From: Asticcacaulis tiandongensis
GTDB taxonomy: Bacteria > Pseudomonadota > Alphaproteobacteria > Caulobacterales > Caulobacteraceae
Reading direction: 5' to 3'
Assembly: GCF_006475605.1 (NCBI RefSeq)
Contig: NZ_SSBC01000019.1
Span: 310,001-374,000 of the forward strand
DNA: 64,000 nucleotides
Every line of letters begins with the position of its first letter. Within the stretch, counting starts at the first letter, position 1. The translations under genes were made by a program, and so were the position numbers. Below, piece after piece: positions 47,824 through 61,571 of the stretch. The notes beneath the pieces are model-generated. The model ran no database searches. It saw only the letters and a list, made by a program, of their open reading frames with translations, and was not told the origin of the DNA.

Positions 47824-48792
47824 ATGACCGACACAAAATTGAAGCCGAAAACCCCTCGAGCTGCTATGGCCCTGGCGAAATCACAGGCCTATCAGGATGC
47901 AGCCGATGCGCCTGCAACGGTTCGTGCCTATGCCTCGGATCTGAAAAATTTTGAGGCCTGGTGTCAGCGCAGCGGCTTTAATGCCCTTCCAGCTACGCCT
48001 GAGGTTGTCGGGGCGTATCTGGCGGCGGCTGGTGAAGGTTACGCCATGCAAACCCTCAGACGTCGTGTAGCAGCCATTGCACGGGCTTCCGGCCTGACGG
48101 GTCATCCGCTTGATACAAAACACCCGGCTATTCGTGAGACGTTGCGCGGTATCGCCCGCACCCACGGCAGCCGTGGTCGCAGAGCGGCGGCACTGACGAC
48201 AACTGAGTTGAAAGCGCTCAGCCGAGCCTGCGAGGATAACACGCTGACCGGCATTCGGGATAAAGCCCTGTTGCTTGTGGGCTTTGCCGGAGCCTTCCGG
48301 CGATCCGAGCTGGTTGCGCTCGATGTGGAAGATCTGACCTGGTCAAATGATGGCGTCAGATTGCTGCTGAAGAAGTCGAAAACAGATAAGGAAGGCATTG
48401 GCGCAGAAGTCATGATTGTATATGGACGCCAAGAAGCTACCTGCCCCGTCAGAGCATTAAGAGTTTGGCTTGATACAGCGAAAATCAACAATGGGCCAAC
48501 TTTCCGAAAGGTTAACAAAGCTGGCAGGGTTGAGCCAAGACGGTTGAGTGAGGATGCTGTGCGGCAGGTTCTGACGAAAAGAGCGGCGGAAGCGGGTATT
48601 AAAGGCTCACTGGCAGAGCCCGTGAGCCCTCACGGTCTCAGAGCGGGCTTCGTGACCACGGCTTATCGCGCGGGTGTTTCCGACGAAGAAATCATGGGTC
48701 ACACCCGCCATAGAAGCCTGGCCACCATGCGCAGCTATGTCCGGAGAGCTAAACTCAAAACCTCAGAGCCTTCAGGAAAACTGGGCCTGTGA
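47824..48792 (+). CDS. Tyrosine-family site-specific recombinase/integrase
   Basis: Three hundred and twenty-two residues. The N-terminal SAM-like core-binding domain (about 15-105, TVRAYASDLKNFEAWCQRSG) precedes the catalytic domain. Catalytic residues: Arg in FRRSELVALD, Lys in LLKKSKTDKEG, His-x-x-Arg in HGLRAGFVT, His in GHTRHRS and the nucleophile Tyr in ATMRSYVRR. It is a stand-alone integrase with no excisionase, phage or conjugation genes beside it. It marks the left edge of the accessory island that ends near 61.2 kb. Confidence 0.92.
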   Translation: MTDTKLKPKTPRAAMALAKSQAYQDAADAPATVRAYASDLKNFEAWCQRSGFNALPATPEVVGAYLAAAGEGYAMQTLRRRVAAIARASGLTGHPLDTKHPAIRETLRGIARTHGSRGRRAAALTTTELKALSRACEDNTLTGIRDKALLLVGFAGAFRRSELVALDVEDLTWSNDGVRLLLKKSKTDKEGIGAEVMIVYGRQEATCPVRALRVWLDTAKINNGPTFRKVNKAGRVEPRRLSEDAVRQVLTKRAAEAGIKGSLAEPVSPHGLRAGFVTTAYRAGVSDEEIMGHTRHRSLATMRSYVRRAKLKTSEPSGKLGL

Positions 48793-52394: not shown

Positions 52395-53585
<1,191 letters not shown>

Positions 53586-53775
53586 CCCCCAAGACGCGAT
53601 CCCAAGGTAGAGAAATAATCTGCCTTGGAGTTGCCCAATTGCGCCCGAACCGGACATATCACCCGCGCCTCGGCGATTGCTCTAAAGCGGAAGCTGGCCA
53701 CCCGTCGCAATGATCCCATTGCTGACCTAATGACATTTTTTGAGCGAGCGGCCCCATAGTGTCGAGTCATGTAGA

Positions 53776-54602
53776 TTAAGGTGTTGTTTTCAATATTGTA
53801 TGGACTTCCGCGCTATCTCCGTATGCAGATTTAAGGCCGCGATACACCTCTGTGAGCACATTCTTTAAGCAGACGATTGAGTCATTGAAATAGGCGCTGT
53901 CGATTGGCAGCATATCGCCCCTTTTTGCGCGCGCTAGCGCGCCGGCTTTTCCAACGTAAATGTCGTTCGCCCTGCCGTCACCATGAACATAAATATCTCT
54001 TGTAGCCTTCAGCTCGACGTATTTGCCCCAAATTTCGTCTTTGATGGCGAAACCAAATATAGAGGCCATATAACCCTTTAATTGAGTCGGGGTGGCGTAG
54101 AGCGCATCACGAACGCGCTTCTCAGCCTTATCAGAAATTAAATCTCCAATTGATTTCGCTTCTATTACATCCTTTAAAACAATAGTCTTAATTTCGTCTT
54201 CGGCCGCCTGCTTTCCCTTTGCAGATGTAAGCAATTTGTGCGGATATGCTCTTATTATGATTGTAAGGCATGTCGATATTAGTCTTCAATTAAAGCGATC
54301 GAAAATACAAGCGATTGAACGTACTCCTTGGAAGAGATGCGCGCATCAACAAGTTCTATGATCGTACTTATATTACGTGAAAGTCCTACCGGATCTGCTT
54401 TAATGCTAGGCGCCAGAAGCCTGTAGCGCGTCTGCTTCTTAGCTTGGCGCGCCGCGAAGTCCGCCCGAATTGTCTGAAGCCCTTGGACTGCAAGCTGGCT
54501 TTCGATGAAAATATCATTCAGCTTTCGCAACGGCACATACCTTTGCGCTGCAAAAAGGGCATTATTTCTGGGCGCCTTTTTAGGCATACTCTTATTAGGC
54601 AT
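53776..54602 (-). pseudogene. HEPN-domain protein gene broken by a one-base frameshift
   Basis: Two adjacent frames belong to one gene. The first runs from ATG 54602 (GGAG upstream) to SIALIED and hits TAA at 54279. If one base is added in that codon, the frame continues as Y-ISTCLTIIIRAYPHKLL into the second frame, ending at 53776. The joined product is about 275 residues, mostly helical. The second part carries RDIYVH, an Arg-x4-His HEPN motif, in a context (LKATRDIYVHGDGRANDIY) like RiboL-PSP-HEPN proteins. HEPN proteins are often RNases or their partners in defence and toxin systems. Either the gene is dead or a base is missing in the assembly. Confidence 0.65.
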
Positions 54603-55076
54603 AATAAGTTTCTCCGGAGCCGGCTCAATGTCTGCGTTCACTCATTTCTGCCCTGAGTTGCTCCCTGTCGCTAGGCCCGAGTGCAAAAACAATCTGCATC
54701 AGAGGCGTCGCCCGTTTTCGGTTGAAGACTCTTTGGGGGCATTTGGATGGTTCAATCGTCATGTCGGCTTTGGGCCATTCGGCACTCTCGCGCCCATACC
54801 AAAACTCGATAAATGGCAAAACATATCCTAAGACCGGACATCGCACTCACTCGCCACGGAGCTTCACAACACTCCGATGACTGGCTAACTCGGTCAAAAG
54901 CAGGCACCCAATCGGGCGCTTACATTGAGAATTTCGGTTGAATTTTAAGGGGCGCAATAGCTACATTCACATCATTCTTGCAAGCTGACGGACACGTATA
55001 TAATTCAGCCGCCCCCTACCGTTTCAGAGGCATTTAGGTATGCTCCCGGAAGTACATTTGAGTCACGAAACGACGA
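54603..55076. other. Gene-poor stretch upstream of the DUF2971 gene
   Basis: About 470 bp without a supported gene. A leftward frame 54625-54846 (73 codons) has no recognisable family and I see no evidence that it is used. The right part presumably contains promoters for the HEPN gene (leftward) and the DUF2971 gene (rightward). I see no clear boxes or repeats. Confidence 0.4.
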
Positions 55077-55781
55077 ATGCAGAATGGAACTTATGAAATG
55101 GCTGCGGCCCTAAGGCGCTATACAAGTGTAAATGCCGTACTTGATACACTTCTCCACAGTCGGATTACTTTACTAAGCCCGAATAGTTGGGCGGATCAAA
55201 ATGATCGAGAAATGATGTCTTTGTATGGTGACTCGGTTCCCGGCCACAACGTTTTCGCCTTTTGCATGGCTGAGGGGAATGAAACAGCGCACCATTGGCA
55301 GGTATTTGCTGACGGGGGTTACGGCGCGTGCATAAAGTTCGACCAAGACCGGCTGTTATCTGCCATTCGTAATAATCAAAATGTCCGACACAGCCATGTC
55401 TCTTACGTTCAATGGCACGATCTGTCATCAGGGCACAACCCATCGGGCTTCCCCTTCATTAAGCGCTCAGTTTTTCGGTTCGAGAAAGAGTATAGGCTTG
55501 TGGCGACAGTACCCGCATCAGACTCTTCGCCTGAAGCTTACAATGTACCGATACCCATCTCGTGCATCACCAGCATTTACCTCAGCGGAGCAATCCCTGC
55601 GCCTCACTTCCAAACGCTCTACACGATAATTCGATCATTTCCAGGCTGTGGAAAATTGACATTACGACAGTCAGGGCTACTCCAAAATAAAAAATGGTCG
55701 GCATCCGTCCTAGCAAAATCTTCTTCTGAAAGAATGCAGTTGAAAGTTCACCACACACAACCCCAGGGGGAAGGTGATTGA
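55077..55781 (+). CDS. DUF2971 domain protein
   Basis: Two hundred and thirty-four residues. DUF2971 features: LRRYTSVNAVLDTLLHSRIT at the N-terminus, LLSPNSWADQNDREMM, and the core FAFCMAEGNETAHHWQVFAD followed by GGYGACIKFD. RFEKEYRLVA then lies near residue 133. The family occurs in defence islands and near phage genes, but its biochemical role is unknown to me. It faces the methyltransferase gene of the neighbouring operon with one base between their stops. It may be an accessory of that system or independent. Confidence 0.8.
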   Translation: MQNGTYEMAAALRRYTSVNAVLDTLLHSRITLLSPNSWADQNDREMMSLYGDSVPGHNVFAFCMAEGNETAHHWQVFADGGYGACIKFDQDRLLSAIRNNQNVRHSHVSYVQWHDLSSGHNPSGFPFIKRSVFRFEKEYRLVATVPASDSSPEAYNVPIPISCITSIYLSGAIPAPHFQTLYTIIRSFPGCGKLTLRQSGLLQNKKWSASVLAKSSSERMQLKVHHTQPQGEGD

Positions 55782-55782
55782 G

Positions 55783-57357
55783 CTAGGCGCCGTGGCGTAA
55801 TCTATGCGTCTGCATTTTTACGAGTATAGATCGAAAAAGACTCAAGTCATCTGCGTCAAATATCTTACTTTCCCTAAGCCACTCGTCACCTAAATCTAAT
55901 ATCCTCGATTGATCATTAAACGCAGCTAAAAAGGCTTCGTTCTTTGCAACGCTGGCCGATGAGTACACCAATGGCAACCGCCTGAACTCTTTTGGCGTCA
56001 ACTCAAGCACGCCTCCACCGTAAAATCGCCCTTCAATCTCACAAAATAGTAACGTCAATGAATTATAGAATGAAAAACATATGTTCTCCATCGTGTAACC
56101 TAGCTTAGGGTACACGTGATATGCAGTATCAGTAGAAAGAACGCCTGCTTTGTTCATGCATAACTTTGGAAGCTTGTGTGATCTTTTAAAAAACAACCCC
56201 GGAGCTTGCCGAACTACTGGAATTTTATACCACGGACGCCTGTGAAGAGACTTGTACCTTTTATCGATACCCAGGTCTTCGCCCATTGAGATATATGCAT
56301 AAGCATGACCATCAAGAGGTTTTCCGTCTGAGGCGCAAAAATCTATTAAGTAACAAGGATCACTCATTTCAAGTGATTGGAAGTCGTCACTTGAAAATAT
56401 AGGAAGCGATTTGACATATGCGCCCTTTTTTAGAATTGGCCGAGCCCAATCCTCTAATCCAAATCTAAAAACATCTTCCTTTCTCAATATGAAGAAATCA
56501 TTTGCAGCCGTAACAGTGCCTGCCGAGCTATCGCAATAGTCGCCAACCTTATTCAAATCGGCATACACCTTTGCTAAAAAATCTCTTTCATTGGCATCTA
56601 ATATAAATGAAATACTCTCCATGTTAGTTGACACAGAAGCCGCTTTGCACCTTGTGGCATCTTTATTCAAATTGTCTAAGCTAGAGACCTTGTGAAAATT
56701 CACACCAACCTTATCGGGAACAGCATTCGTAGCGACAAGAACTACTGCGTCCTGATCAATGCTTTTAAAGGCTTTCTCTTCAGGCACGTATATATCGATT
56801 TGCTTGAACCGCGCAGCAAGCCACCCCCTTAAAAATTCAGCGTAGTTTACCGTGATGAGCTCGTAAGGAACGACAAAAGCCAAGGTCCCCTTAGGTGAAA
56901 GCATGCCCACGGCTGCAACCACAAAAGCAACCCAAGCGTTTTTTAAATGGGTAATTGGGTACTCGGATCTAACCGACAGCGCCTCCACGCCGAGCTTCAC
57001 GGTAGCTGAAAAGTTATGCTTGCGAACATATGGAGGGTTGCCGATTACGAGGTCGAACCGCACGTCCGCCGCCTCTTGGGCGAACGACAAGAAATCCGAT
57101 TGCACATAATTGGCGGCGGGTAGATTTTGGCGCGCCGCGTTCAGCGCGACACCATCAATATCTACGCCCGTCACAGCGGCGCTGGTAAAGCGACACTGTG
57201 AACTTCTTAAAAAAACGCCATCTCCGCAGCTTGGCTCAAGGATGCTGGCAACGCGTCCAGGCAAAGCACTGCAGATGCGTGCGATCTCATCGGCTACGCT
57301 TTGGGGTGTATAAACTACGCCATGCGTCCGCCGCGTGCTTCGGTCAGGCGTCAACAA
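55783..57357 (-). CDS. Gamma-class N6-adenine DNA methyltransferase (TaqI/Eco57I-like)
   Basis: A 524-residue protein from a TTG start that follows AGGGA at good spacing, inside the last codons of the HNH gene (14-nt overlap). Motif X/I region: VVYTPQSVADEI and ILEPSCGDGVFL (39-50). VTGVDIDGVAL near 63 is the SAM acid. Catalytic motif IV is NPPY (107-110) followed by VRK. The C-terminal half (about 280-500) is a TaqI-like target-recognition domain with YKIPVVRQAPGLFFK and GGGVLELTPKEFRRLPLVY. No nuclease domain is fused; the adjacent HNH protein could be the endonuclease. Confidence 0.88.
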   Translation of the reverse strand: MLTPDRSTRRTHGVVYTPQSVADEIARICSALPGRVASILEPSCGDGVFLRSSQCRFTSAAVTGVDIDGVALNAARQNLPAANYVQSDFLSFAQEAADVRFDLVIGNPPYVRKHNFSATVKLGVEALSVRSEYPITHLKNAWVAFVVAAVGMLSPKGTLAFVVPYELITVNYAEFLRGWLAARFKQIDIYVPEEKAFKSIDQDAVVLVATNAVPDKVGVNFHKVSSLDNLNKDATRCKAASVSTNMESISFILDANERDFLAKVYADLNKVGDYCDSSAGTVTAANDFFILRKEDVFRFGLEDWARPILKKGAYVKSLPIFSSDDFQSLEMSDPCYLIDFCASDGKPLDGHAYAYISMGEDLGIDKRYKSLHRRPWYKIPVVRQAPGLFFKRSHKLPKLCMNKAGVLSTDTAYHVYPKLGYTMENICFSFYNSLTLLFCEIEGRFYGGGVLELTPKEFRRLPLVYSSASVAKNEAFLAAFNDQSRILDLGDEWLRESKIFDADDLSLFRSILVKMQTHRLRHGA

Positions 57358-57931
57358 TCTGATCCCTGAATTTATCGTATAGGATTGTCAACTCGTCGAT
57401 CGCCTCAAGCAGCTGAAGGTAGCTGGAATCTTTAGCGGATAACCCGCTTTTTACCGCGCGTAAATTATCCCTAAGCTCTCGAATTTTTTTCGATTGCCAC
57501 ACAAACTGATGGCGAATGAGATTCAGCTTCAAATGTTTGATCATATACGCACCAACAGGAGTGCGGGGAAGGAACCGACCATCGGCCGACCGATCTAGAT
57601 GTATTTCATATTCGACCGAACAAGGGTCGACAAAACCCTCGATGTCGTTGTGGGAGATTGATGCATCGCTGCCAATCCATGTGTTTGACTTTGAACGATT
57701 ACAGAACGGGCAAGCGTATATCAGATTTGAATAGGCAATCTTTAAGAGGGGGAATTTTGAGTGCGGAGCGAAGTGCTCCACGTGATAGACTGACTTCCCC
57801 CCCAGAAATGAGTCCGGTGTGTCGCAGTACCCACACGCTTTATCGAAATCTATCCTCAAAGTGGGCTTATATGCCGCGTAGGCAGATCTGATCTCCGGAG
57901 CAGACCGAACAGGAACCCTATCTCTCAGCAT
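57344..57931 (-). CDS. HNH endonuclease
   Basis: The frame opens at 57967, but ATG 57931, just after the receiver gene's stop, gives 195 residues. The zinc-supported HNH core is clear: CGYC (33-36), YHVEHFAPHSKFP (catalytic His in HVEH, 50-53), Asn in YSNLIYACPFCNRSKSN and the second CxxC (74-77). The C-terminal part is helical (LKLNLIRHQFVWQSKKIREL). Such enzymes nick or cut DNA with a divalent metal. It sits between a receiver gene and an adenine methyltransferase gene, which suggests a restriction-type effector. Confidence 0.88.
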   Translation of the reverse strand: MLRDRVPVRSAPEIRSAYAAYKPTLRIDFDKACGYCDTPDSFLGGKSVYHVEHFAPHSKFPLLKIAYSNLIYACPFCNRSKSNTWIGSDASISHNDIEGFVDPCSVEYEIHLDRSADGRFLPRTPVGAYMIKHLKLNLIRHQFVWQSKKIRELRDNLRAVKSGLSAKDSSYLQLLEAIDELTILYDKFRDQIVDA

Positions 57932-57938
57932 CTTGCAC

Positions 57939-58610
57939 CTAATTTCCGCTCTTATTCTTGATTTCAACCTCTAACCTGCCAAGCAACTCTTCGGCTTTTT
58001 GCAGTATAGAATTGAAAGGAGCTAATGCACTTTCCTTCAATAAACGCGGCACAGCGTCATTTTTGCTCATAGCTGCTTCAAGAAAATCATCAAGATCCAA
58101 GGCTTCTTGCAGCTCGTCAGCAGTGAGTGCGCGCTCTGCAGATAGATTTTGCAGCCCAATCAACCGTTCTGCCTTGGTTTGGATCGTGGTTTGGTGCTCG
58201 TCGATTTTAGCTTTAACCCGCGTAAAAAACGGCAGTTCTGTTTTGGGCTTGCCGTTCTCATCCGGCTCTAAATCGGATTTCGGGAAGATCACATTTACAT
58301 CGATGTTATGGTTTAGAGCTTCTCCAACATAGTTGGTCATCAAGAAGCAAGGATACCCTTCGTATCGATCTTGGAATTCCCGAACTAAATCCAAGCCATC
58401 GTACTGGATACCTGTTTTCTTATCTCCCAACTTATAGTCCGAAATAACAACTTGGCACTTTGATTCTACTATATACTCGATCATTTCTTCCATATTTTTT
58501 AAAGGAAGAATTGTTGACACTTCGCTTTTGGAAAAATGGCCCGACCGGTATGCGGCTCGGATTACCCGATTTCCTTCCGCAGGCTCCTCATCAATGTACA
58601 GAAGGTTCAT
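57939..58610 (-). CDS. Receiver-domain protein with helical C-terminal extension
   Basis: The frame opens at 58658. ATG 58610 (or 58616) starts the protein just before the receiver strand; 223 residues from 58610. All receiver residues are present: acid pair Asp7-Glu8 (YIDEE), phospho-acceptor Asp58 (VVISDYKLG), Thr92 (FLMTNY) and Lys111 (IFPKSDL). The C-terminal 100 residues are helical and charged, without a DNA-binding motif, and may contact the HNH or kinase protein. The start overlaps the kinase gene by 20 nt, so the two are co-translated and likely partners. No known output domain is seen. Confidence 0.82.
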   Translation of the reverse strand: MNLLYIDEEPAEGNRVIRAAYRSGHFSKSEVSTILPLKNMEEMIEYIVESKCQVVISDYKLGDKKTGIQYDGLDLVREFQDRYEGYPCFLMTNYVGEALNHNIDVNVIFPKSDLEPDENGKPKTELPFFTRVKAKIDEHQTTIQTKAERLIGLQNLSAERALTADELQEALDLDDFLEAAMSKNDAVPRLLKESALAPFNSILQKAEELLGRLEVEIKNKSGN

Positions 58611-61194
58611 TTTCATCAACTCTAGAAATAGGTAGGCGAATCTCGATCCCAAATCCATGCCCTAACGGATTTCGCACATCTGCTGAGCCGCCATTACTAC
58701 GAACGATCGATTCAAGAATCCACATGCCCAACCCCGTTCCGATCGCGTTGCCGGATGAATCCTTTTTTGTAGTCACAGCAAATTCAAAAATATCGTTTGG
58801 CTTGCCGATAGTTAGATCAAGCCCAGGACCGTTATCAGTGTAGTCAATTTGCAATTCTCCCTTAACATTCACAATCGATTCAATAGTTATAAGGCGGGGA
58901 GTGTCCAAAACCGAGTCGGTAAACGCCTCAATGGAGTTAAGGATCAAATTGTTAAAAATACTATCAATATCTATCTCATATGCGAGTACATTGGGCGAAG
59001 GAGAAACATTCAGATCCAACTTGAGTTCAATTTCACGAGGCAGGAGAAACCCCTTCCAATAATTAGCCAAGGTGTTGATGTGGGCCTGTATATCTATATG
59101 CTTCCGACGTCGCCGTTCGGGCCTCACGGAATTCAGCGCAAAGCTAAACCACTGCTTTACCTTTCTGTCTTCTTCTGCCCACTCGTCGAGCATTATGTAT
59201 GGGTTGAAGGCATCTTGTTCGAGAGCAGCCGTTTCTCTTGAAATGTAATCACCCAAGATTCCCGCCATCTCGATTGCACGTGTTCCCATGGCATTCTGGA
59301 GTTGGCCCATCTCATGTGAAAAGGATACAAGTACAGTCCCCAAAGTGGCTAGCGAGCGCAGCATCACCTGCTCTTCCCGAAGGTCGCGAATTTCAGCTTG
59401 CTGCACCTTGACGGTCTTGCTTAGCGTCAGGGCTTCTTCTTGTGCGGTTGGCGGCAAGGCTAGCGGCAAGGATTGCAGTTTACTGCCCTTCTGAGCCGAC
59501 TCTTTGGCGGCCTCTCTGACCAACTTTTCTGCTATCTTTTCCCCCTTCAGTCGCGTCAGCTCGTCTTCATCAAGTTCTTTGAACAACTCAAGCAAATTGA
59601 ATAAAATCGTACTGCGATCTCGCTCGAACTCGCGAATTGAACGGAGCAGCAAGTCAATAAACACTTCAAATTCAGGGCTCTCGACAATTGCTTCACGGTT
59701 CGACTGATCGCCAAGGGCCGCATTTGCTTGTCTCGAAATTTTTACCGTACCAGAAATGTTTTGCGGTGAAACTGGCCAGCTTTTCCGGGAGGGCTGAACG
59801 GGGTTTGCGGCACGTCTCTGCCCTAAGCCGAGCCAGTCGAAAGCTCGACTTCCAACCTCGCCATAAGGGCGGACGAAGAAATTGTCTCTATAGATCTTTA
59901 TACCCGCGAAGCGATCCATCCAATCCTTTCGAGGGCCCGGATTGAACGACCGATAAGGATACTTGCGCTGGTCGTCTCCTGAGCCTAGCGAAAGCTTATA
60001 GAAACGAAATACAGCCGAAAATGGACCAAGTATTTTAGCGGTGGAAATAGCCTTTATATTTTTAGGGCCAAATATCTGCTCGAGGGTCTTTGTGTACGTT
60101 ATAGATTTCTTTCCAAATGACGCTTTGTCAAATGGAAACACTTTCATTTCTTCTCTTAAAAAGAGCTCGGATGGAAATTCACTTACATTAAGCTCATTAC
60201 GCCAGATTGTATAGGTCGCCACACCCTCTTCAGAGAACTCAACTTCTAACTTATAGTCGTAGTCCTCTAGGACTTCAGAAAATATCTCAATATCAGTTGA
60301 GGGCGAACTATCATCGTAGACAACGATCTTGAAGGACGATTGCTCATCTGGTGGCACGAGGGATGAGAGCGCGCGCCGAAGTCTGCTGGTTGCTTCAGCC
60401 GCCCACGCATCTCGTAAGCCAGAAATTCTAATGCAGGTGCCAGTGTCCCACTTGAAACTCTCTATCTCGCCCTCTTTTATGGGTTCGTCGCTTTTTTTTG
60501 GCCTCGGCTGCAAGACTGAGCTGATTTCCTTTATACTCAGCAGCTCAGTAACATCTGATTGGAAATCGGCTGTGCCTTCGTCCAGCGTTGCCTTAACCTG
60601 ATCTAAGACCGCGTTTTCATCCTCGAACGCGCGCCAATCCACTCGCCAGGTCAACGTTACATCGCTTCCATCCGATGTAAGACTTTTTGAACTTAGCTTG
60701 CAGGTTTCACCAAGCCTATCCAATGCAAATCGACCAATACCCTTTGCCCCGGTACGAGTTCGACCGGCGGCCGACAGCACATTTTGCTCCTTGAAATTTG
60801 TCCCGATAACCATCCAGTTCTTTTCAATGGCATCGGAAGACATTCCCGCACCGTTGTCTAATATCCAAAGGTCTCGTATACGCAAAATGTCAGAATTTAT
60901 TTTCCCGCCACTCTCTTCATTAAAATCACCGACTAAATTGTACCTAATACCGTCCTTATGATAAATTTGGCTAGCGTCATTAACGATGGCGAGTAGCTCG
61001 TTATATTCAGACTCAGAGATGCTTAGGGGAAGTGTGGTGTAGCGTTTTCGAAACGCGATCACACACACTCGTGCGTCTGCATCGTAAGAATTCTTGACCA
61101 GTTCGGAAACCGCCGCGTCCGCTGTTGACACATTTTCACGGCCAATGAGACGAGCCGTCTTAGCAGACACTTTGAATGAAAGTTGTTTAGTCAT
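58591..61194 (-). CDS. Soluble double-GHKL ATPase/histidine-kinase-like protein
   Basis: Eight hundred and sixty-seven residues, no transmembrane segment. The N-terminal GHKL ATPase is of MutL/Hsp90/MORC type: N box VSELVKNSYDADA (E31, N35, D38), DNGAGM (113-118), and GAKGIGRFALDRLGE (149 on). A middle region of about 300 residues is followed by a coiled coil (about 540-610). The second module is kinase-like: phospho-acceptor-type helix with FSHEMGQ (His near 627), N box NNLILNSIEAF near 748, DNGPGLD near 787 and GTGLGMWIL near 819. It is the first gene of the four-gene operon, followed by a complete receiver, so it is probably the sensor. Confidence 0.85.
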   Translation of the reverse strand: MTKQLSFKVSAKTARLIGRENVSTADAAVSELVKNSYDADARVCVIAFRKRYTTLPLSISESEYNELLAIVNDASQIYHKDGIRYNLVGDFNEESGGKINSDILRIRDLWILDNGAGMSSDAIEKNWMVIGTNFKEQNVLSAAGRTRTGAKGIGRFALDRLGETCKLSSKSLTSDGSDVTLTWRVDWRAFEDENAVLDQVKATLDEGTADFQSDVTELLSIKEISSVLQPRPKKSDEPIKEGEIESFKWDTGTCIRISGLRDAWAAEATSRLRRALSSLVPPDEQSSFKIVVYDDSSPSTDIEIFSEVLEDYDYKLEVEFSEEGVATYTIWRNELNVSEFPSELFLREEMKVFPFDKASFGKKSITYTKTLEQIFGPKNIKAISTAKILGPFSAVFRFYKLSLGSGDDQRKYPYRSFNPGPRKDWMDRFAGIKIYRDNFFVRPYGEVGSRAFDWLGLGQRRAANPVQPSRKSWPVSPQNISGTVKISRQANAALGDQSNREAIVESPEFEVFIDLLLRSIREFERDRSTILFNLLELFKELDEDELTRLKGEKIAEKLVREAAKESAQKGSKLQSLPLALPPTAQEEALTLSKTVKVQQAEIRDLREEQVMLRSLATLGTVLVSFSHEMGQLQNAMGTRAIEMAGILGDYISRETAALEQDAFNPYIMLDEWAEEDRKVKQWFSFALNSVRPERRRRKHIDIQAHINTLANYWKGFLLPREIELKLDLNVSPSPNVLAYEIDIDSIFNNLILNSIEAFTDSVLDTPRLITIESIVNVKGELQIDYTDNGPGLDLTIGKPNDIFEFAVTTKKDSSGNAIGTGLGMWILESIVRSNGGSADVRNPLGHGFGIEIRLPISRVDENEPSVH

Positions 61195-61571
61195 AATTTT
61201 ATCTCACGGTTGACGAACCGTATCGGATTCTTCGCACCCTGTAACGAGAAAACATCTTTGATTCTAAGCGGACAGATAGCAGTACGAACGTTCGAAATGC
61301 GCACAGCTCTCTAAATGTCTGCTTTTAAAATTTTCTTTGACGGCGAAAGTCTGCAAAGGGCCAACTACGGAAAAACCCGTTTCGATGCCACCAACACGAA
61401 GAGTTTAACTATGTACCTTGAATAGGTTCCAGAAACGATCGAGGCACTCTCGATAAAGTGCAATCTTAAAGATCAGAGTTCCGCTTCCTGAAGCCCAGAC
61501 GTCATACCCCTCATGAACGCACTTATTCCCTATTTGGATCGGGGAATAACAAGAAATGAAGGGCGGATGAT
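61195..61571. other. Intergenic region at the right end of the island
   Basis: A 377-bp divergent gap between the kinase operon and the PL11 gene. It holds the expected promoters of both. The AT-rich character of the island fades inside it, so the boundary probably lies here. Apart from the dyad at 61523-61549 I see no repeat, tRNA or attachment-like duplication of the sequence near 47.8 kb. Confidence 0.5.
61523..61549. promoter_or_regulatory. Inverted repeat TTATTCCC/GGGAATAA before the PL11 gene
   Basis: Eight-base perfect arms (61523-61530 and 61542-61549) with an 11-bp spacer, 22 bp before the PL11 start codon. Suits an operator that represses the lyase gene, but could also be a leader hairpin. 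Confidence 0.45.

Follow-up and report, generated by a model that had tools for sequence, protein, structure and literature searches.

A four-gene operon joining a double-GHKL histidine kinase and a receiver to an HNH nuclease and an adenine methyltransferase: a candidate restriction-like system

Why are a histidine kinase and a receiver encoded together with an HNH nuclease and a DNA methyltransferase (MTase)? This arrangement lies on the minus strand at 55783-61194 of a 64,000-nt stretch of the Asticcacaulis tiandongensis contig NZ_SSBC01000019.1 (positions 310,001 to 374,000; hereafter the window), where the four genes overlap or almost touch. Twenty-one intact operons of this kind were found. 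With modest confidence, we favour the reading that the operon is a mobile, restriction-like anti-invader system, in which the HNH nuclease would be gated by a His-Asp phosphorelay and adenine methylation would provide the self mark.

Conservation and carriers of the four-gene unit

An operon was counted as intact when all four genes were present, and the key-residue counts and distances given below refer to the 21 intact operons. These derive from Ensifer, Salipiger, Bacteroides, Deinococcus, the genomes G339 (of the window's class) and G326 (of its phylum), viral contigs and the window, and they occur in two gene orders. The order kinase-receiver-HNH-MTase (10 operons) is found on plasmids of Ensifer adhaerens (L008), Salipiger (L009) and Bacteroides finegoldii (L011), in G339 (L181), and in several IMG/VR contigs. 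The order MTase-kinase-receiver-HNH (11 operons) is found in Deinococcus gobiensis (L014), G326 (L182), and further contigs; a Klebsiella variicola plasmid (L012) has the same order with a broken kinase. These 21 operons rule out a chance neighbourhood. An earlier sequence-only reading of the window had made its proposal depend on homologous operons keeping the four genes together, and they do so in distant bacteria and mobile elements.

Scans started from single proteins lead to the same unit, and those from the HNH protein, the kinase, and the MTase share many contigs. In viral contigs, the HNH scan gave eight loci, with the receiver adjacent in 8/8, the kinase in seven, and the MTase in seven, both misses falling at contig ends. 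The kinase scan, made with a wider alignment, gave 24 loci, 18 of which contain the receiver and the HNH gene; 17 of these also contain the MTase, the eighteenth ends after the HNH gene, and the remaining six of the 24 are the weakest matches. Seven plasmid records match the HNH protein at 1e-5, and five are the operons of L008, L009, L010, L011, and L014. Two DNA searches of E. coli gave no match, the phage records gave a single short match, and one scan of genome contigs gave three loci that match the generic kinase end only.

The genes and their key residues in the window are as follows.

61194-58591, minus strand: double-GHKL histidine kinase, 867 aa, soluble (Pfam HATPase_c_3 and HATPase_c)
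Kinase, N-terminal HATPase_c_3 module: E31, N35, D38, D113-G117, G149-G154, R500
59316-59314, minus strand: codon of His627, the kinase H-box, after the middle or linker part
Kinase, C-terminal HATPase_c: N749, N753, D787, G789, G819, G821
58616-57939, minus strand: receiver (response regulator) protein, 225 aa, assigned by residue layout (Response_reg below cut-off)
58439-58437: codon of the receiver phospho-acceptor Asp60; further key residues D9/E10, T94, K113
57931-57344, minus strand: PtuB-like HNH nuclease, 195 aa (Pfam PF01844, PADLOC PtuB)
57775-57773: codon of HNH H53; further key residues C33/C36, N69, C74/C77, N78, K81
57357-55783, minus strand: DNA MTase, adenine-N6 by family, Eco57I/BseCI type, 524 aa (Pfam, PADLOC MTase_II)
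57039-57028, minus strand: NPPY motif of the MTase, residues 107-110

The sequence-only reading had given these four genes, with these coordinates and in this order on a single strand, and the open reading frames (ORFs) confirm it, together with the 7-bp gap between the receiver and HNH genes and the 14-nt overlap of the HNH and MTase genes. Its kinase-receiver overlap of about 20 nt holds from an ATG two codons downstream and becomes 26 nt from the ATG at 58616, with a further ATG upstream at 58658; by the same shift, its receiver Asp58 is the residue numbered Asp60 here. The kinase is soluble, as had been proposed, with a largest 19-residue hydropathy mean of 1.0 and no transmembrane-like stretch. 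The residues it had named, His627, the HNH histidine (His53), and NPPY, are present and conserved, except for the tyrosine, which is phenylalanine in some copies; across the relatives, the residues of the relay are kept, as are the active sites of the nuclease and the MTase.

In all 21 operons, His627, N749, N753, K151, and R500 of the kinase, D60 and T94 of the receiver, H53, N69, N78, and K81 of the HNH protein, and the NPP of the MTase are invariant. Kinase E31, N35, and D38 are kept in 20/21, the exception being the Salipiger protein, for which the annotated start was used; this start closely follows an IS66 element; D787 of the kinase and C36 and C77 of the HNH protein are likewise kept in 20/21. 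Furthermore, pairwise distances correlate between the four genes (r 0.81-0.97), with 0/2000 permutations as high in any of 18 comparisons, which supports their co-inheritance.

The conservation of both the N-terminal ATPase motifs and the kinase motifs makes two working ATP sites likely, and E31 sits where MutL-type ATPases have their catalytic glutamate. Matches of the kinase profile in the PDB (E 0.001) are all histidine kinases, other sensor proteins, or CheA-type proteins, and every best stretch begins at profile position 569 or beyond; the N-terminal part has no match in this search. PADLOC holds no model for the kinase or the receiver as such, giving 15-bit matches only for the kinase and none for the receiver.

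The receiver matches Pfam Response_reg at E 0.0013, below the cut-off, so its identity rests on residue layout and profile matches: D9/E10, D60, T94, and K113 are spaced as in receivers, and a profile of 17 receivers matches 12 solved sequences (E 3e-4 to 9e-3), which by name are response regulators, CheY-type or receiver proteins, plus one SenB. Beyond the domain extends a tail of 112 residues without a recognised domain. In the 21 operons, the tail measures 96-117 residues and, when pooled, is Leu/Glu-rich and Gly/Pro-poor; this near-constant length and composition suggest helices for protein contact. No DNA-binding domain was recognised in the receiver by Pfam or by the structure-profile search, and on this ground, together with the tail composition, the output of the receiver is probably the adjacent HNH protein.

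The HNH protein lies above the Pfam cut-off for PF01844 and matches PADLOC PtuB at E 6.8e-17. Its scores for the NCBIfam models are 25.8 bits for PtuB (cut-off 150) and 27.5 for TIGR02646 (cut-off 52.15), and the relation to PtuB in the PDB is weak (E 0.003). The MTase lies above the cut-offs of both M_Eco57I_C and Eco57I in Pfam and matches PADLOC MTase_II at E 1.9e-116; the closest solved structure is BseCI (7qw5, E 7.3e-29). As in type II restriction-modification, a DNA MTase thus adjoins a nuclease gene. The MTase was rejected as an exclusive marker of the operon, as 7 of 80 MTase loci (of at least 236 relatives) carry the receiver and HNH genes, the five best MTase matches being among those seven. 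Among plasmid records, 87 have an MTase match at 1e-15.

The operon is mobile, occurring on plasmids, in prophages, and in islands of distant bacteria. In L139, it is flanked by a Phage_GPA gene and a portal gene, and genes for an integrase, a terminase, and a major head protein are present on the same contig, a gene set that we take to be P2-like. The gpA-gpQ interval of P2-like phages of E. coli is described as a hotspot of antiviral systems in the available part of PMC9122126. In L025 and L027, the operon adjoins a tail-protein gene (phrog_52), by our reading gene D. An integrase or recombinase gene lies within about 2.3 kb of the operon in L138, L140, L182, L011, and L181, and recombinase-like ORFs, named by eye only, occur in L033 and L028. 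In addition, the Klebsiella copy has the anti-phage gene ppl in the same stretch, and the Bacteroides copy has a SocA/MqsR pair.

Related kinase-receiver pairs and described systems

Close prior art, missed by the sequence-only reading, is found in a 2021 study. The available passages of that study (PMC8011034), a sequence analysis grown from expression data and without functional test, describe 644 regions with receiver-like genes, of which 91.6% are linked to GHKL kinase-like genes; restriction-modification genes are over-represented in the regions, mainly those of cytosine methylases, along with Vsr and HNH_2. Like the HEF_HK (PF19191)/Response_reg_2 (PF19192) pairs in these passages, the window operon contains a soluble kinase of HATPase_c_3, DHp-like, and HATPase_c parts with an adjacent receiver-like gene, next to restriction-modification genes; the neighbourhoods described are rich in type II genes, including HNH variants. 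However, they contain mainly cytosine methylases with Vsr, whereas the operon has an adenine MTase and a PtuB-like HNH protein in a fixed four-gene unit.

Membership in HEF_HK/Response_reg_2 was rejected, as the window pair fails both PF19191 and PF19192. At E 0.1, PF19192 matches neither the window receiver nor the receivers of seven relatives, nor anything in the window's own genome, although none of 14 control genomes matched either; a profile comparison of the window receiver with PF19192 gave a probability of 0.9%. As positive controls, the model found the L145 receiver (2e-37) and lay above the cut-off in 8/299 genomes. Its matches fall in open frames of 567-817 aa, compared with 225 aa for the window receiver. 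PF19191, run without a positive control, matched none of the kinases of the window, L008, L011, and L014 at E 0.1.

In a tree of 44 kinases, midpoint-rooted for drawing, the adenine-MTase classes A, B, and C are separate from class D (cytosine methylases) and class E (Ssp genes), with the exception of the long-branch row D_G226, which groups with the A+B+C side. The split of A+B+C (with D_G226) from the rest of D, E, and two PF19192-linked kinases has 100/99 support, so that A+B+C, the side of the window kinase, looks like a sister branch. Gene orders A and B are intermixed within their clade.

The kinase profile matches 332/398 genomes of the window's phylum at E 1e-12, among the matches listed nearly always in the generic kinase half only (at most two candidates were scored per genome). 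Nine regions in which the match extended into the N-terminal or middle part of the kinase were fetched; close to the kinase, eight of them carry a DNA MTase and the ninth a Vsr gene. These are the receiver, HNH, and adenine MTase genes in G339 and G326, a Dcm-like MTase in G011, G247, G216, G068, and G226, two other type II MTases in G397, and the Vsr gene in G069. On plasmids, 113 records match the window kinase. The 17 opened, chosen from the list and not a random sample, comprise four loci of class A, two of class B, two of class C, six with Ssp genes, and three put with class D, where dcm is present in L045 and L048 and the third locus is L044.

In class C, the HNH position is occupied by an MBL-fold protein (L013:10743-11780 and L042:7769-8776) that weakly matches models of RT-associated MBL proteins and of LmuA, an exchange of effector. 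Two proteins of 242-247 aa (L146:13112-13840 and L147:13281-14024) follow MTase, kinase, and receiver, overlapping the receiver ORF; the L146 receiver was assigned by eye, as its profile did not match. Neither protein has a Pfam match at 0.01 or a PADLOC match at 0.001, and that of L147 has no PDB match; they are possible new effectors.

The six class-E plasmid loci (L043, L046, L047, L049, L050, and L051) all contain Ssp genes, the matching models being SspB, C, D, F, G, or H, with scores up to 2272 bits. SspF, G, or H is present in 5/6, so that the pair there occurs together with the SspFGH module and is not simply a substitute for it. Compared with the window operon, these SspABCD-SspFGH loci have related kinase-receiver pairs in 6/6, another self mark, other partners, and long receivers of 636-714 aa. 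A comparison of the class-E receivers with the Response_reg_2 proteins of L145, L016, and L020 (hhalign E 4e-4, probability 34%) hints at a C-terminal domain common to both, marked by 'CD' and 'R-[IV]-G' motifs, in which no known nuclease motif was found. In the search for a nuclease domain in the long receivers, three of the six class-E receivers and the control receivers gave receiver-type Pfam models alone (Response_reg, cREC_REC, and Response_reg_2). As a separate observation, the class-E pairs may be relevant to the A. baumannii Ssp that lacks a nuclease, as it appears in part of PMC12421847. Overall, kinase and receiver resemble a transferable control module that has been joined to three or more ways of marking self: adenine methylation, cytosine methylation, and phosphorothioation.

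Among other systems, paraMORC proteins share with the window kinase the GHKL motifs of an N-terminal ATPase module and the neighbouring DNA methylases and HNH nucleases (PMC2292703; of the GHKL + S5 module, the GHKL motifs and the gene neighbours were compared). However, the window protein is fused to a complete histidine kinase and paired with a receiver; the available passages describe neither, and the words "receiver" and "phosphorelay" are absent from the main text. VcSduA, a Shedu protein tested against phages, is likewise a GHKL ATPase with a clamp-like middle domain joined to a nuclease; its phage defence by the nuclease requires the paraMORC3 GHKL domain (PMC12137116), a precedent for the favoured reading. 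Unlike the window operon, it is a single protein with a PD-(D/E)xK nuclease, and no receiver or MTase is described in the part available.

The HNH protein weakly resembles the PtuB/TIGR02646 kind in Septu (PtuA/PtuB) and retron Ec78, which differ from the operon with its kinase, receiver, and MTase and without a PtuA ATPase or retron in sight. Membership in these systems was rejected, as no PtuA ATPase occurs in the PADLOC matches of seven ORFs (best 25 for HNH and MTase) and PtuA models appear for the HNH protein only. Detocs is a phosphorelay-controlled anti-phage immunity whose effector is a nucleotide-cleaving PNP and which is not known to include an MTase or HNH protein; phosphorelay control would be shared, whereas the operon has HNH and MTase in place of the PNP. 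No Detocs match was found in PADLOC-DB 2.0.0 for the kinase or receiver, though that release may not include Detocs, and no PNP match was found in Pfam for any of the four proteins. For BREX and MADS, the matches listed for the seven ORFs include no PglZ or BrxC, and only the MTase touches such models (PADLOC mad2 7.7e-20; NCBIfam MAD2 and BREX MTase far below cut-off).

The sequence-only reading had not recognised the set as a named system, and no description of a kinase-receiver-HNH-adenine MTase operon was found in searches of an open-access library, which excludes most subscription papers and preprints. The available parts of PMC7641849, PMC12839542, and PMC10952713 describe nothing closer. 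A figure legend of DefensePredictor (PMC13092281) names HATPase and REC in predicted systems awaiting validation, and the figure may show the window pair or a related pair. Within the accessible text of PMC8011034, such pairs beside restriction-modification genes are known; what seems new here is the fixed operon of adenine MTase and PtuB-like HNH with a kinase-receiver pair outside PF19191/PF19192.

Proposed mechanism and its rivals

Phosphotransfer, defence, the target of the nuclease (DNA or tRNA), the sensor cue, and the receiver-HNH contact are all inferred from sequence. In the favoured reading, the MTase, judging by its family, would mark the cell's own DNA at adenine. The N-terminal MORC/MutL-like ATPase module of a kinase dimer would act as the sensor, most simply as a clamp closing on unmarked DNA, or by responding to another infection cue, and its state would switch on the C-terminal histidine kinase. 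Autophosphorylation at His627 would then pass the phosphate to receiver Asp60, as the invariant residues and the gene pairing suggest, and the receiver would contact the HNH protein encoded directly downstream, releasing or loading it. In the usual picture, restriction enzymes cut on sight. A conserved phosphorelay connecting the sensor with the nuclease would make restriction a decision that can be switched on or off, and it would tie two-component signalling to the distinction of self from non-self. It would also suggest a function, open to experiment, for the double-GHKL kinases catalogued beside modification genes in PMC8011034, as far as its passages go.

A bolder form of this reading is possible, and we hold it tentatively. 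The kinase would be a DNA-clamp histidine kinase whose MORC/MutL-like N-terminal ring, closing on unmarked DNA, drives His-Asp phosphotransfer, and one checkpoint module would be shared by defence systems with differing self marks: HNH or MBL effectors would go with adenine methylation, Vsr or a restriction endonuclease with cytosine methylation, and SspFGH with phosphorothioation. If true, restriction would be a switched, signalled decision and not constitutive cutting.

Several observations weigh against the favoured restriction-like system. A conserved His and Asp are equally expected of an ordinary regulator. In the Ssp loci, where SspF, G, or H adjoins the pair in 5/6, it may itself be a regulator. 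Some relay residues vary: kinase E628 is kept in 18/21 (varying in 3), receiver K113 in 19/21, and D9 in 19/21 (E in 2). The permutation result for the distance correlation treats related rows as exchangeable and hence is not a calibrated probability. Some copies look broken: in Salipiger (L009:5619-8094), the kinase gene is immediately preceded by an IS66 element, and the kinase is split into two ORFs in R. phaseoli (L010:7941-10568) and into three in K. variicola (L012:7989-10259). The operon is also rare, being found in its own genome only among 385 of its class at E 1e-40, and the window protein matches 3/398 genomes of its phylum at 1e-20. The parts occur elsewhere: 73/80 MTase loci lack the receiver and kinase, and 2/7 plasmid records with an HNH match (weak; Streptomyces and Gluconobacter) lie outside the operons found. 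In L044, the kinase and receiver have no annotated modification gene within 5 kb, in an incomplete gene table.

The strongest rival, rather unlikely in our judgement, is abortive infection, in which the receiver would unleash the HNH protein on tRNA or other host nucleic acid and the MTase would serve sensing and not self-protection. The nearest characterised HNH relatives are PtuB of Septu and retron Ec78; Septu cleaves tRNA-Tyr (PMC13096335, in part) and phages escape retrons by making tRNAs (PMC11555353, in part). The MBL-fold swap also suits a general effector slot. However, the PtuB relation is weak, below the NCBIfam cut-off and distant in the PDB, no PtuA partner is seen, and the MTase is present in all 21 intact operons, though "intact" required all four genes.

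Regulation of transcription or stability, in which kinase and receiver would tune the expression of an ordinary type II pair of HNH and MTase, is less probable still. Two-component systems usually control transcription, the pair accompanies SspF, G, or H genes in the Ssp loci, and the authors of PMC8011034, in the passages available, speculate on signalling that controls restriction-modification. On the other hand, the lack of a recognised DNA-binding domain in the receiver and the composition of its tail argue for another output, and overlapping or near-touching genes fit a complex better.

That the kinase half is structural only, with a paraMORC ATPase loading the nuclease without a phosphorelay, is very improbable: the N-terminal GHKL part does touch the BbrUII/HgiDII restriction-enzyme model NF050001 (E 2.9e-10, 39 bits, cut-off 550) and paraMORC proteins are tied to restriction genes in the accessible text of PMC2292703, but a vestigial relay would be expected to lose His627, the N-box, the glycine motifs, and receiver Asp60 and Thr94, all kept in 21/21 (D787 in 20).

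Surroundings of the operon in the window

The features around the operon are as follows.

53584..61553: AT-rich stretch, probably accessory; similarity to G747 stops at 53583 on the left and resumes at 61554 on the right
53776-54234 and 54279-54641, minus strand: two small ORFs of the AT-rich stretch, matched by neither Pfam nor PADLOC
55077-55781, plus strand: DUF2971-like/PDC-S31-like gene, convergent with the MTase gene, with 1 base between the stops
47824-48792: recombinase, Phage_integrase, 7 kb from the operon

The sequence-only reading had called the operon AT-rich, rightly: its GC content is 0.465, that of 53600-61500 is 0.469, and that of the rest of the window is 0.569, the lowest-GC 5.4-kb stretch before 53.6 kb having 0.537. 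In G747, a genome of the same genus, the three genes left of the AT-rich stretch keep their order, and the polysaccharide-lyase-like gene (named by eye) right of it has relatives on another contig. An empty site was not found in G747, where the two flanks are on different contigs. The stretch at about 53.6-61.5 kb is probably accessory.

The same reading had placed the operon in an island next to a recombinase, an HEPN gene, and a DUF2971 gene. The recombinase was rejected as part of the island, lying 7 kb off and beyond three genes, LysR, OYE-like, and aldo-keto reductase (by eye), that are syntenic in a genome of the same genus. The HEPN assignment of the ORF at 53776-54234 is unsupported, as neither Pfam (at E 0.1) nor PADLOC gave a match. 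The DUF2971-like gene is probably a mere neighbour of the operon, as its product is not among the annotations of the L009, L011, and L014 stretches. Its DUF2971 assignment falls just under the Pfam cut-off (21.4 bits against 22), and the ORF matches the PADLOC candidate PDC-S31 at E 1.3e-9.

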